DNA of 34,631 bases from an uncultured Bacillota bacterium (lineage in GTDB: Bacteria; Bacillota_I; Bacilli_A; Erysipelotrichales; Erysipelotrichaceae), in assembly GCA_949298975.1 (NCBI GenBank), contig CASFYR010000029.1:1-34631 (forward strand), in the 5' to 3' direction. The notes under the pieces are model-generated. The model searched no databases. It saw only the letters and a list, made by a program, of their open reading frames with translations, and had not been told where the DNA came from. This document shows, one piece after another, positions 11,923 through 34,584 of the stretch (position 1 is its first letter; every line of letters begins with the position of its first letter). The position numbers were made by a program, and so were the translations under genes.

Positions 11923-13140
11923 ATGAAGATAAGAGTCGGAGTATTTTTCGGTGGCGAATCCTGTGAACACGAGATATCCTGCATTACCGGCAATCAGGCA
12001 CTGCATGCGATCGATGCAGATAAATATGAAGTATTACCGGTCTATGTTGCCAAAAATCTGGATCTTTATACCGGTGAGGCTTTATACGATCTGAGCAATT
12101 ATTGGTCATTAGAGGAGCTGATCGGTAAACTGGATAAAATAACTTTAGTGAAAGACGGAAATAAGGTTTATGTCAAAAAGGTTCATCCAAAACTGTTTGA
12201 AGCAAAACCGCTGACGATCGACGTCGCCTTTTTGGCGATGCATGGTACCAATGGTGAAGACGGAACGCTGCAGGGTTATATGGAAATGCTCAAGCTGCCT
12301 TATACTTCCAGCAATGTTTTGGGCTCGGCTGTCGGTCAGGATAAAGCGATCATGAAAACCATTTTAGCCTACAACAAGATCCCGATGACTGACTGGTTTA
12401 GTTTTTATGGCAGCGAATTTGAAGAAGACGAGGAGACTTATATCAAAAAAGCCGCCAAAGTCGGCTATCCTTTGATTATAAAACCGGCAAATCTCGGCTC
12501 AAGCATCGGTATTGAAGTAGCAAGAGATGAAAGCGAGTTTGTGGCAAAGGTCCGCTCAGCTTTAGAATACGATTTAAAGGTCGTAGTGGAACACAAGATC
12601 GAGAATTTAAAAGAAGTTAACTGCTCAGTGCTGGGCACGATCGAAGAACCTTTGACCAGTCCGATTGAAGAAGTCTATAAGAAAAAGGACGAAGATATTC
12701 TGGATTTTGCCGGTAAATATAACCCGGGAAATGCCAAGGGCGGCGCTAAAGGAACCAAGGGCGCTAAATGCCCGGCGAAAGGCGGCGCTAAGGGCAGTGG
12801 TGGTATGGCAAATGCTTCACGCAAAGTACCGGCCGATATCAGCGAAAAGATGCAAAAGAAAGTTGAGGATCTTTCCGTTAAGACTTTCCGGGCGCTTAAT
12901 GCCTACGGCTGCGTACGGATCGATTATTTGATCGATCTTGATACCGATAAGGTCTATGTCAATGAGATCAATTCGATTCCCGGTTCCCTGGCTTTCTATT
13001 TATGGCAGGAAGACGGCATGGGCTTTGATGTTCTGTGCGATCACTTAATCAAAAATGCCATCAAACGCTATCGTCAGAAAGAAAAACTGACTTTATCGTT
13101 CGATACTAATATTTTAAGTAATTTCAGGAGGAATAATTAA
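11923..13140 (+). CDS. ddl: D-alanine--D-alanine ligase with a Gly/Lys/Ala-rich insertion
   Basis: ATP-grasp enzyme joining two D-alanines for peptidoglycan. Conserved parts seen in 405 residues are the N-terminal VFFGGESCEHEIS, AMHGTNGEDGTLQGYME, LPYTSSNVLGSAVGQDK, the ATP-binding PLIIKPANLGSSIGIE, and the C-terminal RIDYLIDLDTDKVYVNEINSIPGSL. In place of the short omega-loop that closes over the active site there is a low-complexity stretch, residues about 267-294, made of repeated GGAKG/KGAK units, before the conserved PADIS. The underlying DNA contains near-repeats of GGCGGCGCTAA, pointing to expansion by slippage. The family average is about 350-370 residues. The ribosome site is GAGGTGG. 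The stop overlaps the deoD start by 1 nt. Confidence 0.94.
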   Translation: MKIRVGVFFGGESCEHEISCITGNQALHAIDADKYEVLPVYVAKNLDLYTGEALYDLSNYWSLEELIGKLDKITLVKDGNKVYVKKVHPKLFEAKPLTIDVAFLAMHGTNGEDGTLQGYMEMLKLPYTSSNVLGSAVGQDKAIMKTILAYNKIPMTDWFSFYGSEFEEDEETYIKKAAKVGYPLIIKPANLGSSIGIEVARDESEFVAKVRSALEYDLKVVVEHKIENLKEVNCSVLGTIEEPLTSPIEEVYKKKDEDILDFAGKYNPGNAKGGAKGTKGAKCPAKGGAKGSGGMANASRKVPADISEKMQKKVEDLSVKTFRALNAYGCVRIDYLIDLDTDKVYVNEINSIPGSLAFYLWQEDGMGFDVLCDHLIKNAIKRYRQKEKLTLSFDTNILSNFRRNN

Positions 13141-30427: not shown

Positions 30428-31014
30428 GCGAATTATTGACGATTAGCCGTCCGGAAAGGACGATTACGGTGCAAAGGGGAATTATCAGCGGCCTGCGGGT
30501 GCCAAAAGGGCAGGTCGATGACTGGTTGCGGCTATTGAGCGGACAGTCGTTTGACGGATCGCTTGTTTTTGAGGGTCAAAAGATCGACAGCAAATCTAAA
30601 GCAGCCGTCTTGAAGCAGGCTTCAATGGTCGTAAATGGTCATGACGATCTCTTTTTGGATCTTGACGCCATTGATAATATTATGTTTGCAGCCATGCTGC
30701 GCCGGCAACAAATAAGCGAGACTTTGGTCAGTGACGCTTTGAAACGGCTGGGTTTCCCAGAAGCAAAGTTGAGATTAACAACCGATCAATTAAACGACAG
30801 CGAACGCTTTTTGGTCGCCGCTCTAAGAGCGGCCCTCAGTGCTTCTTTGATCATCTTTAAAGACAGCGAACTTTTGACGGCTGCTTCCCTGGCGCTATTC
30901 CAACTGCTCCGTCTTTTTGACGATAAAAAAGGGCTGATTGTGGTTGGTGATGATCTTAAGGTGGGTCAGGTTGCTGATGTGTTATATGAAGTGGTCGATA
31001 GTGGGGCAAAGTAG
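30424..31014 (+). CDS. Degenerate ABC ATPase-like protein lacking Walker A and B
   Basis: 196 residues that follow the outline of a MacB/LolD-type ATPase but without its active residues. Where Walker A (GxxGxGKS/T) is expected there is GLRVPKGQVDDWLRLLSGQ; the expected FDG and Q-loop area reads LVFEGQKIDSKSKAAVLKQA. The signature region is LNDSERFLVAALRAALSASL instead of LSGGQ...ARAL, and the Walker B position is IIFKDSELL instead of LLADEP. The end (LIVVGDDLKVGQVADVLYEV) matches the H-loop region but has Asp-Asp where THD is usual. Length is about 30 residues short. The frame is intact and coupled to the permease, so it is probably a retained pseudo-ATPase. It is unlikely to hydrolyse ATP (inference). 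Confidence 0.72.
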   Translation: MSELLTISRPERTITVQRGIISGLRVPKGQVDDWLRLLSGQSFDGSLVFEGQKIDSKSKAAVLKQASMVVNGHDDLFLDLDAIDNIMFAAMLRRQQISETLVSDALKRLGFPEAKLRLTTDQLNDSERFLVAALRAALSASLIIFKDSELLTAASLALFQLLRLFDDKKGLIVVGDDLKVGQVADVLYEVVDSGAK

Positions 31015-31015
31015 A

Positions 31016-32170
31016 ATGAAAAGAATTACGGCAGTGGGAGCGATGCTGATGATCGTTCTGGCCTTAGGCGGTTGTCAGCCTAAAAGGAGTCAGATAGCGG
31101 AAATGAGCGTTGAATATGAAATCAGCGCACCTTTGATCACTACTTCAAAACTGGAGGAACTGACCGGTCCGCTTGGCATTTTTGCATCTTGCTACAACAC
31201 GCTGTATTATTATAATATCTTTAATGAAGAAATGGTTTTTCGGAAAGATAACTATCATATTTACACGGAAGAAGAGATCGAAGCGGGCATGATGCCGCAG
31301 ACACCGGAAATTGAAAGCACTGATTACTACGTTTTGGATGTTGCGGCTATGACGGCGAGAAAAATCGAATTAGAACTCAATGACAACGAAAGTATCCTAA
31401 AGATTGTTAAACTTAACGAAGAGGAATATTTCTATATAACCACCGAGCTAACCGATACCCGCTTTATCAGCCGTTACTATCTAGACCGCGGTGACAGCAG
31501 CAATGAGCTGATGCCTGCAGCGATCGCCGAAATGGATCCGAATTATAGCGGATATTACTATTTATATCCTGATTTTGCAGTATCCGGCGATGAGATCTAT
31601 TTTAGCTACAGCCGTTATGACGGCTGTGCCTCGATCTATACCGTGTATCGTTTGAATGAAGCGGGAGAAGCAAAGAAAATGACCGAGTTTTACGGCGACT
31701 TTGTCTTCAATGCCGATCTGTTAGAATCGACGGTGGATCAGTTGACGTTTTTGGACCATGATTACAGTCGGTTTTATTATTTAAACGGCGATCATTTTAT
31801 ATCTTATTCGGTCGAATATTATCTTGATAATGATTTTTATCTGGATCATCCGCTGGTAATCGACGGTCAGCCTTTTGCCGTATATTTGAGCGAGAGTCGG
31901 GATATTGGCTTTGTCGAGAACATCACTACTAATGAACATTTTGAATTTACAAGGCAAGGTACACCTCGTCGGTTTCTTGTTTGCTTTGACGATATGCTGA
32001 TGTTGCTGAACGGCCAGAAATTACTTTTTATAACTTACAGGGATAGAACTTGGTATTATCAGGATACCACAGTCGATTTTTCAGACATTAACAAGATTGA
32101 AATGATAAATGACAATGAGTTGCTTCTGCTTGGTATGGATCAGACGATCAGAAAGATGATTATTAAATAA
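31016..32170 (+). CDS. Lipoprotein of unknown function, third gene of the permease operon
   Basis: About 384 residues. The signal peptide MKRITAVGAMLMIVLALGGC ends in a good lipobox (LGGC). The mature part is rich in Tyr, Asp and short beta-strands with repeats of the type DxYYVLDV, EEYFYITTEL and GDEIYFSYSRYDG, reminiscent of a beta-propeller, but no family is recognised. The true start is ATG 31016, 1 nt after the pseudo-ATPase stop; a longer frame from 30938 lies inside that gene and would bury the signal peptide. Probably an extracytoplasmic partner of the permease (inference from context). Confidence 0.75.
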   Translation: MKRITAVGAMLMIVLALGGCQPKRSQIAEMSVEYEISAPLITTSKLEELTGPLGIFASCYNTLYYYNIFNEEMVFRKDNYHIYTEEEIEAGMMPQTPEIESTDYYVLDVAAMTARKIELELNDNESILKIVKLNEEEYFYITTELTDTRFISRYYLDRGDSSNELMPAAIAEMDPNYSGYYYLYPDFAVSGDEIYFSYSRYDGCASIYTVYRLNEAGEAKKMTEFYGDFVFNADLLESTVDQLTFLDHDYSRFYYLNGDHFISYSVEYYLDNDFYLDHPLVIDGQPFAVYLSESRDIGFVENITTNEHFEFTRQGTPRRFLVCFDDMLMLLNGQKLLFITYRDRTWYYQDTTVDFSDINKIEMINDNELLLLGMDQTIRKMIIK

Positions 32171-32219: not shown

Positions 32220-32759
32220 ATGAAAAAGAGATATATTCTGGTCTTTATATTGGTCATCACTCTTTTTGGCGTCTTATCGACCTGTGAAAAAAGAGAAGAT
32301 CCGCTGATCAATAAGGCTTTGATTTCATTTAAAGAAAGCGGTTTTAGTAAATTGTATTATTACTATTCTTCAATTCCTCTTGGTGAAATGGAAGAGGCAG
32401 ATTCTCTTTCTCTTGAAGAAGTCCTGACATCATCATTTTTTGATTTTGATGAAGAAGCTATTGCTTTGATAAAGAATGATTATAACCGACTGATCGACGA
32501 ACTGATCACTTCTGTTGATTTAAGTCAACTGGAAAATATCGATAGATATGATCTGGTTTTTGAGGATCATATCTATTCCCTTAAAAACGCTGAATACCGG
32601 ATCTTTTTTGAAACCGATCAGAGAATCGTGGTGCAGGATCTGCAAAGCAAGGACTTAGCTGTTGAATACTATCAGACAAGTACCGACTGCACCAAAATCA
32701 TTGCCGACTGGCAGAAGCACATGAATGAATTGATCAGGAAATATTATAAATATTCATAG
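32220..32759 (+). CDS. Small secreted or lipid-anchored protein of unknown function
   Basis: About 179 residues. The N-terminus MKKRYILVFILVITLFGVLS is a signal peptide followed by TCEKRED; the lipobox LSTC is imperfect because Thr is uncommon before the cysteine, so it is either a lipoprotein or a simple secreted protein. The mature part is acidic and aromatic with no known motif. The start is set by GGAGGTG at 32207-32213, 7-9 nt before ATG 32220; an ATG at 32199 lies upstream of that site. It follows the preceding lipoprotein after about 50 bp and may share its operon. Confidence 0.65.
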   Translation: MKKRYILVFILVITLFGVLSTCEKREDPLINKALISFKESGFSKLYYYYSSIPLGEMEEADSLSLEEVLTSSFFDFDEEAIALIKNDYNRLIDELITSVDLSQLENIDRYDLVFEDHIYSLKNAEYRIFFETDQRIVVQDLQSKDLAVEYYQTSTDCTKIIADWQKHMNELIRKYYKYS

Positions 32760-32786: not shown

Positions 32787-32795
32787 TGGTAAAAT
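32787..32795 (+). promoter_or_regulatory. Extended -10 promoter of leader unit 1
   Basis: TGGTAAAAT with an A-rich downstream stretch. The same -10 region is recognisable 1.1 kb downstream in leader unit 2 (TATAATAAAA), so the promoter belongs to the repeated unit. Confidence 0.5.
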
Positions 32796-32819
32796 AAAAA
32801 TGTAAATAGGAGTATCATC

Positions 32820-32882
32820 ATGTTAAGACATAACCCTCAAAGATATAAGAATGGAGATGTATTACAAACGCAAGTCGTTTAA
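32820..32882 (+). CDS. Putative leader peptide 1 (20 residues)
   Basis: The ORF MLRHNPQRYKNGDVLQTQVV starts at an ATG with AGGAG 7 nt upstream. It shares M-L-x-x-N-P-Q-R-Y-K-N-G with leader peptide 2. It runs through the 5' arm of the downstream terminator and ends in its loop, so a translating ribosome would prevent the hairpin from forming. No match to a known leader peptide is recognised. Confidence 0.5.
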   Translation: MLRHNPQRYKNGDVLQTQVV

Positions 32883-32895
32883 CTTGTGATTTTTT
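32869..32895 (+). terminator. Intrinsic terminator of leader unit 1
   Basis: CGCAAGT pairs with ACTTGTG (one G-T pair) around a 6-nt loop, followed by TTTTTT after one base. Confidence 0.65.
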
Positions 32896-32924
32896 GTTTT
32901 AAAAAGAAAATATCGTGAAAATTG

Positions 32925-33229
32925 ATGATATTTATAATGATATTAATTATATCGATAACATCTTATACGCTTGCTGATGTAAATACGGAAACTAGAAATC
33001 TAGACAAAATGATAAGAGAACCGTATACACATCGTTTGCAAGCGATCTTAGAATAAGCTTATGAAAGAGTTTATGAAATGGATGAGTATTTAATTGGATC
33101 GAGCATGGAAAGACCGGAATAGGAAGATTTAATAGAATAGGTACTTTCTATAATTCTTTGGCAAGTACTGTTAAATATTATCTTAATGAAACTTCACAAT
33201 CAAGAAATGTTGTGAATAATATATATTAA
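32925..33229 (+). pseudogene. Decayed secreted-protein gene behind leader unit 1
   Basis: An ATG at 32925 opens a frame with a signal peptide (MIFIMILIISITSYTLAD) and 43 codons to an in-frame TAA at 33054. The same frame continues with protein-like sequence (AYERVYEMDEYLIGSSMERP) to a second stop at 33120. From 33086 another frame is open to 33229 (for example IGRFNRIGTFYNSLASTVKY). The pattern is one gene with a nonsense mutation and a frameshift. Its place behind leader unit 1, and the ..AD-V-N.. junction after the signal peptide, parallel the gene at 34029, but the mature parts do not visibly match. The rest, to 33324, is AT-rich and shows no gene. Confidence 0.5.
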
Positions 33230-33324
33230 AAGAAACAGCAAAAATATAATATCCATTTCGATTGCACTCCTTTTTCTCATGTGGGCATAAATTGAATTAA
33301 TTAATTATAGTAATTTAGTGACAA

Positions 33325-33828
33325 ATGAAAAAGAAAATAGTTTTTTTGATTATCATCGTGGTTGTCGTGATAATAGGGATGATCATATTTAAAAAGACCG
33401 AACTGATCAGTGATGAAGAGAAAGTTACTGATATTTTCATCGTATATAACAATTATGAGGATATTGATAAAAGTATAAGTTATGAGTTATGCAAAGAGAG
33501 CTGCTCTGCAGATATTCAGACAGATAATGTCGATCTGTCTGAACGGTTTGAAGATGTGATAGCCGTTTTAAGCGATCATTATTACACCAATACTCCTTTT
33601 ACTCTTGCCTATAATAATGACTTTTTGAATTATTTTTTAGGACTGTCTTTGCCTTATTCAGGTGAATCCTTGCTTGTGATTGTTAGCTACGAAGACGATC
33701 ATGATCCAATCTCATTTATGATCTACAAAGATTTAGATCAGCTTTTTGTCAACGATGCAGTCTATCATTTGAGAGGCAACAATGATATATATCAAGAGCT
33801 TTCAGTCATTTTAGGTAATTTAGAATAA
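33325..33828 (+). CDS. Membrane-anchored protein of unknown function
   Basis: 167 residues. One N-terminal hydrophobic helix preceded by lysines (MKKKIVFLIIIVVVVIIGMI) anchors an acidic extracytoplasmic domain. Two cysteines close together (ELCKESCSAD) could form a disulfide. No family is recognised. There is no clear ribosome site before the ATG and only a weak -10-like TATAGT at 33306. AT-rich codon use compared with genes left of 32 kb suggests an accessory origin. Confidence 0.6.
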   Translation: MKKKIVFLIIIVVVVIIGMIIFKKTELISDEEKVTDIFIVYNNYEDIDKSISYELCKESCSADIQTDNVDLSERFEDVIAVLSDHYYTNTPFTLAYNNDFLNYFLGLSLPYSGESLLVIVSYEDDHDPISFMIYKDLDQLFVNDAVYHLRGNNDIYQELSVILGNLE

Positions 33829-33910
33829 ATCGGCTTAAAAATAGCGATCATTCAGCGCTGGCGATGATTCTTTTTAGGATCAAATATCTATCTGGTATAT
33901 ACAAGAATTG

Positions 33911-33916
33911 TATAAT
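33911..33916 (+). promoter_or_regulatory. -10 box of leader unit 2
   Basis: A perfect TATAAT, 24 bp before the short ORF, with AAGGA as ribosome site between. No good -35 at 17 bp. Confidence 0.5.
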
Positions 33917-33940
33917 AAAATTGCAGGCAGAAGGATTGTT

Positions 33941-33988
33941 ATGTTAGGATATAACCCTCAAAGATATAAGAATGGGGAATCATTATAA
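33941..33988 (+). CDS. Putative leader peptide 2 (15 residues)
   Basis: The ORF MLGYNPQRYKNGESL has AAGGA 5 nt before the ATG. Its stop codon directly abuts the terminator stem that starts at about 33990, so a ribosome at the stop would cover the 5' arm. Compared with peptide 1 the stop TAA corresponds to CAA there, which explains the different lengths. Confidence 0.5.
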   Translation: MLGYNPQRYKNGESL

Positions 33989-34015
33989 GCACAAGCCTTT
34001 TCGTTTGTGTTTTTT
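33988..34015 (+). terminator. Intrinsic terminator of leader unit 2
   Basis: CACAAGC pairs with GTTTGTG (one G-T pair) around a short pyrimidine loop, followed by TTTTTT. It lies between the leader ORF and the gene at 34029, which therefore needs read-through or its own unseen promoter. Confidence 0.65.
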
Positions 34016-34028
34016 ATTGCAAAAATAA

Positions 34029-34584
34029 TTGGAAAAGAAAGGAACCAAACAAAAAATAATTAGATTACTTATTACTGCTGCTATGATGTTTGTTATGTTC
34101 CCGATAAATTCGATGGCTGATGAAGTTAATAACTTTTCCTTTATTTCGCTAGATGGATTCATTTATGATAATAACAATAATTTTGTGAAATCTTGGGAGT
34201 TTAACAAATCTGATTTAATTGCTCCTTTGTCAACAAATGATGCAAAGAGCGCTTATCGTCGTTACAATAGAAAAACAGTAGGGGCTTTCTTTGGAGAATT
34301 GGTTCATGACGCTGTTTTGCGGGCCTTTATGTCAGAAAGCTTTGGAGAGTTTCAATCTTTTGAGCATGATGTATTTCATATTGAAAATTGGAGCTACTTT
34401 TCAATAGGTGAGCATGGATCATCTGTTAGACCACAAAATAATACTTGGCCAGCAGTTAAGTCATGCTCTGTTGTAGCGGTTTTATCACTGGCATTGAGCA
34501 TTGATTGAAGCAGGACTTTCGATGTCTGGAAATTTTACATACACGAAATATATGACTAATTCATATTCAATTTCTGTATATTAA
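34029..34584 (+). pseudogene. Secreted-protein gene frameshifted by a 7-bp tandem duplication
   Basis: From a TTG at 34029, right after an in-frame stop, the frame gives a basic N-terminus and signal peptide (IIRLLITAAMMFVMFPINSM, then ADEVNN) and a mature part with no recognised family, ending after 159 residues at 34508. Just before that stop GCATTGA occurs twice in tandem (34491-34504). Removing one copy restores a frame that continues ALIEAGLSMSGNFTYTKYMT and ends at TAA 34582-34584, a product of 182 residues. No ribosome site is visible before the TTG, so the start is uncertain; ATG 34083 is an alternative but would cut the signal peptide. It sits behind leader unit 2. Confidence 0.55.
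34491..34504 (+). repeat. 7-bp tandem duplication (GCATTGA x2)
   Basis: Two perfect adjacent copies of GCATTGA. The length is not a multiple of three, so copy number decides whether the gene ends early or runs to 34584. Confidence 0.85.

Follow-up and report, generated by a model that had tools for sequence, protein, structure and literature searches.

RYKNGD leaders: a candidate family of translated regulatory leaders upstream of secreted-protein genes in Bacillota

Short open reading frames (ORFs) of 10–20 codons, each with its own Shine–Dalgarno (SD) sequence and sharing the peptide motif NxxRYKNGD, form a previously unrecognised and widespread family—the RYKNGD leaders—whose motif is named neither in Rfam nor in the searchable literature. 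About 146 single leaders, counted without redundancy, and a further 83 mini-ORFs that make up 19 tandem arrays were found in Erysipelotrichaceae, Peptoniphilaceae, Peptostreptococcaceae, Lachnospiraceae, and Lactobacillales. On balance, the leaders seem to be translated regulatory elements lying near the transcript start of secreted, often bacteriocin-like genes, and would act through the behaviour of the ribosome at the NGD codons.

Two members lie in the window (the whole stretch of 34,631 nucleotides that was analysed), where both mini-genes are unannotated. An earlier note, made from the sequence alone, had claimed two copies 1.1 kb apart with a common −10 box, ribosome-binding site, ORF of 15–20 codons, and intrinsic terminator, as well as an identical 25-base block inside the ORF. 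All of these elements could be located in unit 1 (32789–32894) and unit 2 (33910–34015), which are 106 nt long, 75% identical, and spaced by 1121 nt, and the block, ATAACCCTCAAAGATATAAGAATGG, is the same in both. On the forward strand, unit 1 holds a putative promoter with the −10 box TAAAAT (32790–32795), read from the sequence in a register common with unit 2; the SD sequence AGGAG (32808–32812), found at the same place in relatives; and a leader ORF of 20 codons (32820–32882) encoding MLRHNPQRYKNGDVLQTQVV, supported by the family motif NPQRYKNGD, synonymous variation, and the Arg-codon test. Its terminator, CGCAAGTCGTTTAACTTGTG followed by a T-run (32869–32888), is backed by a terminator scan and by the family-wide positional enrichment of hairpins; the stem begins 13 nt past the Asp codon, and the stop codon of the ORF lies inside the loop. 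Unit 2, on the same strand, has the putative −10 box TATAAT (33911–33916), the SD sequence AAGGA (about 33931–33935, read from the sequence), and a leader ORF of 15 codons (33941–33988) encoding MLGYNPQRYKNGESL, where the D of the motif is replaced by E. The 5′ arm of its terminator, AAGCACAAGCCTTTTCGTTTGTGTTT plus a T-run (33987–34012), starts in the stop codon of the ORF. A promoter scan scored no consensus −35 box for either unit, nor the −10 box of unit 1. Between positions 32600 and 34200, the only two terminator-like sites are exactly those of the two units, compared with 0.5 in shuffled sequences.

The suggestion that the unit had been multiplied by local duplication finds no support. 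A search for the core that tolerated up to three mismatches matched only these two units in the genome to which the window belongs (1.3 Mb, 89 contigs, 95% complete). They are old paralogues and not a recent duplication, because unit 2 is closer to a unit from another species of the same genus (L013, 72% identity) than to unit 1 (69% in the comparison that also covers L013).

That each copy stands directly upstream of a signal-peptide gene, as had been proposed, holds only loosely. Leader 1 is followed by the remnant of a secreted-protein gene (32930–33055, forward strand), recognised by three-frame translation from its hydrophobic, signal-like start, which reads (K)LMIFIMILIISITSYTLADVNTETRN... 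and has several in-frame stops before and after it; the next intact ORF lies at a distance of 442 nt. Leader 2 is followed by an ORF of 159 residues (34029–34508, forward strand) with a signal-peptide-like N-terminus and no Pfam match, beginning at a TTG codon without a good SD sequence. This ORF may be decaying as well, since it lacks a good ATG with an SD sequence and shows an apparent frameshift near its end, and the targets of both leaders thus look degraded. Among the other genes of the window, a lipoprotein gene 1.7 kb ahead of unit 1 (30938–32170) has no leader of its own, but its product is a homologue (E 8e-9) of the protein encoded directly behind an RYKNGD leader in the relative L004, and a D-Ala–D-Ala-ligase-like protein (11923–13140) holds an unusual Lys/Gly/Ala-rich low-complexity insertion (KGGAKGTKGAKCPAKGGAKGSGG).

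Searches of other genomes place the two units in a much larger family. With a degenerate search, NPQRYKNG turned up in four other genomes of the window's family and at 64 genome loci—about six of them by chance—mostly from Anaerococcus, Peptoniphilus, Ezakiella, Finegoldia, Peptostreptococcus, Tissierella, Lachnospiraceae, and Alloiococcus. L018, L019, L023, L043, L075, and L079 were judged chance matches by inspection, and so was the SYKNGD found in ABC transporters. Of 96 genomes from the window's family, 13 contain the broader RYKNGD pattern, in as many as 10 copies each, and the controls gave almost no matches. The pattern is also present in 45 of 120 Peptoniphilaceae-type genomes; 398 random Bacillota_A genomes yielded few matches, near the control level and mostly within long ORFs. 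Several copies per genome are common, each before a different gene. The idea of a regulatory family, which the earlier note had tied to further copies with a conserved peptide before secreted-protein genes in relatives, was right: such copies are abundant in many families, and these searches exclude that the unit is confined to one locus or that its ORF is destroyed in relatives. Consistent with the remark that no known riboswitch or leader class fits, Rfam 15 gave no match to the leaders at the gathering score, and a permissive scan only an irrelevant match elsewhere (E = 0.24). The strings NPQRYKNGD, PQRYKNG, RYKNGD, and RYKNG are absent from the full-text literature searched, and a literature search on a mutY-linked streptococcal sRNA returned nothing relevant.

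The typical peptide is MxxxNxxRYKNGD followed at once by a stop, as in MNYKNPQRYKNGD and the streptococcal MLKFNLGRYKNGD, and the 13-residue form with RYKNGD at its end is seen repeatedly across families. In a set of 104 non-redundant leaders, the core reads [N][P/I/L/V][Q/H/S/A]RYKNGD, where third codon positions vary synonymously while the residues are near-invariant; Asp, which was outside the first search pattern, is nevertheless present in 96 of the 104. In the arrays, whose units were scored by peptide similarity (at least four of the six core residues) and not by a DNA pattern, 76 of 83 mini-ORFs hold the exact RYKNGD, and the remaining seven are single-residue changes, three of them K to R. 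Arg is encoded there by all six of its codons (CGC, CGG, CGT, AGG, AGA, and CGA), and the AGY (Ser) codons that the DNA search pattern permitted at this position appear in only one of 42 new leaders. This pattern indicates that the conserved unit is the peptide, at the level of amino acids. An RNA-level motif was rejected because the variation follows codon degeneracy, and −1 frameshifting at U AAA AAC was dismissed on inspection, the heptamer being disrupted in the AAG AAY and TAC variants. The flanks are variable, with 1–13 residues before R and 0–24 after D, and a fixed hexapeptide with variable termini fits a nascent-chain motif close to the peptidyl-transferase centre. The leader is fused in frame with the downstream protein in L252 (at 7374) and in L159 (a lipoprotein, MVSRYKNGDRLILKFF...), which shows that a long ORF can also carry the motif at its N-terminus.

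The association with secreted-protein genes was observed in two sets of loci. In the first, 73 of the 77 genes starting up to 150 nt downstream of a leader were signal-peptide-like by a crude hydrophobicity rule, compared with 63 of 173 other ORFs (36%) at the same loci. In an independent set, such genes followed 29 of 29 leaders and 2 of 13 motif matches that are not SD-led mini-ORFs. The distance from leader to signal-peptide gene is 15–130 nt, and in some cases the leader runs into the following start codon (−4 nt in L028 and L217). Targets include bacteriocins of the lactococcin-972 type (PF09683), C39/C70-like cysteine proteases, and an Amidase_6 protein, and many target families have no Pfam match.

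The genes around these operons recur as well. Many clostridial leaders are preceded by a regulator of approximately 75 residues from the XRE family (Pfam HTH_3) or by a BlaR1-like protein, neither of which is found near the window units. The XRE regulators standing directly before leader–toxin operons are of two types, ending in ...IFDLDGTGEYRC.. or ...YTLFGLDECECC..; XRE or BlaR1-like M56 proteins precede the leader in L037, L041, L049, L059, L063, L069, and others, and some of these regulators are located where a serine recombinase gene ends (L032). In plasmid pAPRE01 of Anaerococcus prevotii, an unannotated leader has a response-regulator gene on one side and, on the other, what is left of a gene for a secreted protein. 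A small protein with two to three transmembrane (TM) helices, possibly an immunity protein, follows the secreted protein in L027, L041, L061, L071, L073, L088, L157, and L164, and the leader directly precedes a small membrane protein in L045, L046, L127, and L156. A small two-TM "immunity" gene as a constant partner was rejected, being present at only 11 of 66 loci.

A further regularity is the position of a hairpin behind the motif. Hairpins of dG ≤ −9 with a 5′ arm starting 0–17 nt past the Asp codon were found in 23 of 95 sequences, compared with 4.6 expected from dinucleotide shuffles (maximum 9). This enrichment of about five-fold is restricted to the first bin, the following ones being at background, and a second set gave counts by bin of 7, 1, 0, 2, and 2 of 41. 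In the genus of the window, including its relatives, these hairpins are intrinsic terminators; outside it, most of the enriched hairpins lack a U-tract and leave the next SD sequence uncovered. Many leaders lack a strong hairpin, and many are followed by long stems without a U-tract. The proposed attenuation geometry, in which translation to the end of the ORF reaches the 5′ arm of the terminator, is real in the window, and hairpin placement is enriched family-wide and replicated, but elsewhere it usually comes without a U-tract or SD masking. Unmasking of the SD sequence by a stalled ribosome fits single cases such as L074, but as a general mechanism it was rejected, the mean gain being about zero: a ribosome modelled at D freed the downstream SD by 0.009 ± 0.021 in 67 single leaders and by 0.02 ± 0.021 in array units (n = 39), in both cases no better than with shuffled linkers. 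The position of the hairpin is thus supported, and the mechanism only in part. Since the U-tract is usually absent outside the genus and the hairpin as a rule leaves the next SD free, terminator attenuation is not universal, but one version of the regulatory-family idea.

According to the preferred model, a ribosome would translate the leader ORF near the 5′ end of the transcript and probably pause, depending on the nascent peptide, while RYKNGD adjoins the peptidyl-transferase centre. In the enriched subset, the hairpin begins inside the stretch that a ribosome positioned at the N-G-D codons would cover, and translation of the leader, or the pause, would decide whether it forms. In the genus of the window, its formation would in turn determine whether RNA polymerase continues, and in other taxa how the downstream message is used. 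The cue may be a compound that targets the ribosome, or some other signal of competition or of nutrients, a guess prompted by the bacteriocin-like targets and the PTC-proximal motif. A translated leader with a conserved nascent peptide accounts for the association in cis, for the variability of both ends, and for where the hairpin lies.

The tandem arrays are the part of the family that such a leader alone does not explain, which keeps a peptide acting in trans as a candidate. In one genus of Lactobacillales, which we take to be Streptococcus from its S6 and SSB sequences, matches occur in 51 of 147 genomes, many as arrays of two to eight mini-ORFs adjoining mutY. Each mini-ORF has its own SD sequence, the arrays are preceded by a TTGACA/TATAAT promoter that overlaps with a cre-like palindrome, and in those read a terminator closes the array. 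Arrays of five to eight mini-ORFs beside mutY, with a strong promoter of this kind, are found in L246 (reverse strand, about 1780–2680), L247, L281, L282, and L289. They apparently represent an undescribed feature, and because no target gene lies downstream, simple cis regulation does not account for them; we know of no leader-peptide model that does. The main rival explanation holds that a free peptide of 10–20 residues—an intracellular ligand, an inhibitor, or an unusual signal—is co-expressed with the secreted product, the arrays being peptide factories. Besides the arrays, the recurrent 13-residue form speaks for it, and so do two streptococcal bacteriocin operons in which single leaders before lactococcin-972-like genes are preceded by an ORF for a Phr-like short secreted peptide. 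However, the peptide is free to vary at both termini, it carries no export signal, and its hydrophilic motif does not resemble pheromones of the SHP or ComS type. Moreover, single leaders immediately before unrelated secreted-protein genes are hard to explain without a role in cis, and a free peptide gives no reason for the placement of the hairpin relative to NGD. A trans-acting peptide is considered rather unlikely, at about one chance in four.

An effect of translation or of the RNA without a peptide-specific stall—5′ stabilisation of the mRNA against RNases, translational coupling, or a ribosome or RNA sponge in the arrays—appears improbable. The leaders that overlap the next start codon and the long stems without U-tracts would suit it, but it leaves residue-level conservation with six-fold swapping of Arg codons unexplained, and its sponge version is weakened by the rarity of exact-motif single leaders in genomes with exact-motif arrays. 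A functionless remnant of local duplication or of a mobile cassette, as the degraded targets in the window and the many clostridial copies on or near mobile DNA (the serine-recombinase end in L032, a conjugative plasmid) might suggest, is very hard to credit: it is refuted for the family by cross-family conservation, the replicated target association, and the codon pattern, and the age of the window paralogues speaks against it for the two units.

Returning to the translated leader, one unannotated hexapeptide predicts the sites of secreted, often antibacterial, genes in many anaerobes of the gut, mouth, and skin as well as in streptococci, suggesting a shared control of secreted-protein genes across many Bacillota. 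A broader and more tentative proposal, which we consider possible but do not favour, is that NxxRYKNGD marks a ribosome-mediated control of a horizontally moving, bacteriocin-like secretome throughout the Bacillota (Erysipelotrichaceae, clostridial families, and Lactobacillales), together with catabolite-controlled streptococcal arrays of up to eight mini-ORFs. If true, the motif would define a peptide-coded regulon of a new kind.

Among known systems, the amino-acid attenuators of the trp and his type resemble the leaders from the genus of the window, where a tiny ORF ends at an intrinsic terminator and the leader ribosome would reach its 5′ arm. Unlike them, RYKNGD leaders hold no run of regulatory codons, and it is the identity of the peptide, rather than codon supply, that is conserved. 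Erm-type leaders (ErmBL, ErmCL, and ErmDL), acting by translational or transcriptional attenuation, also combine a short 5′ ORF, a nascent peptide that matters, and a nearby hairpin. RYK fits the "+X+" motif of macrolide stalling, and on ErmBL the ribosome stalls when Asp occupies the P site (RNVD-K). RYKNGD leaders share with this type a short upstream ORF whose nascent peptide is conserved, but not the unmasking of the next SD by the leader ribosome. Moreover, Erm-type leaders precede resistance genes, whereas RYKNGD leaders place one peptide motif before many unrelated genes for secreted proteins and also form stand-alone tandem arrays.

The RRNPP pheromones (SHP/Rgg, ComS/ComR, and PhrA/TprA) are likewise encoded by unannotated short ORFs near bacteriocin operons. 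However, the RYKNGD peptide is hydrophilic and has no signal peptide, and the upstream XRE regulators of approximately 75 residues have no TPR domain; no HTH receptor with a TPR domain was found beside the peptide gene, where the regulators are these XRE or BlaR1-like proteins. Finally, the metabolite-sensing arrest peptides TnaC and SpeFL are encoded by short upstream ORFs (uORFs) whose translation is converted into expression of the following gene, and they show no visible sequence relationship to RYKNGD. The same is true of the antibiotic-sensing uORF before topAI-yjhQ in E. coli, which regulates a toxin–antitoxin system and whose translation is read out in the next gene (PMC12121999). In contrast to these uORFs, the RYKNGD motif recurs in numerous operons and families and also forms arrays.
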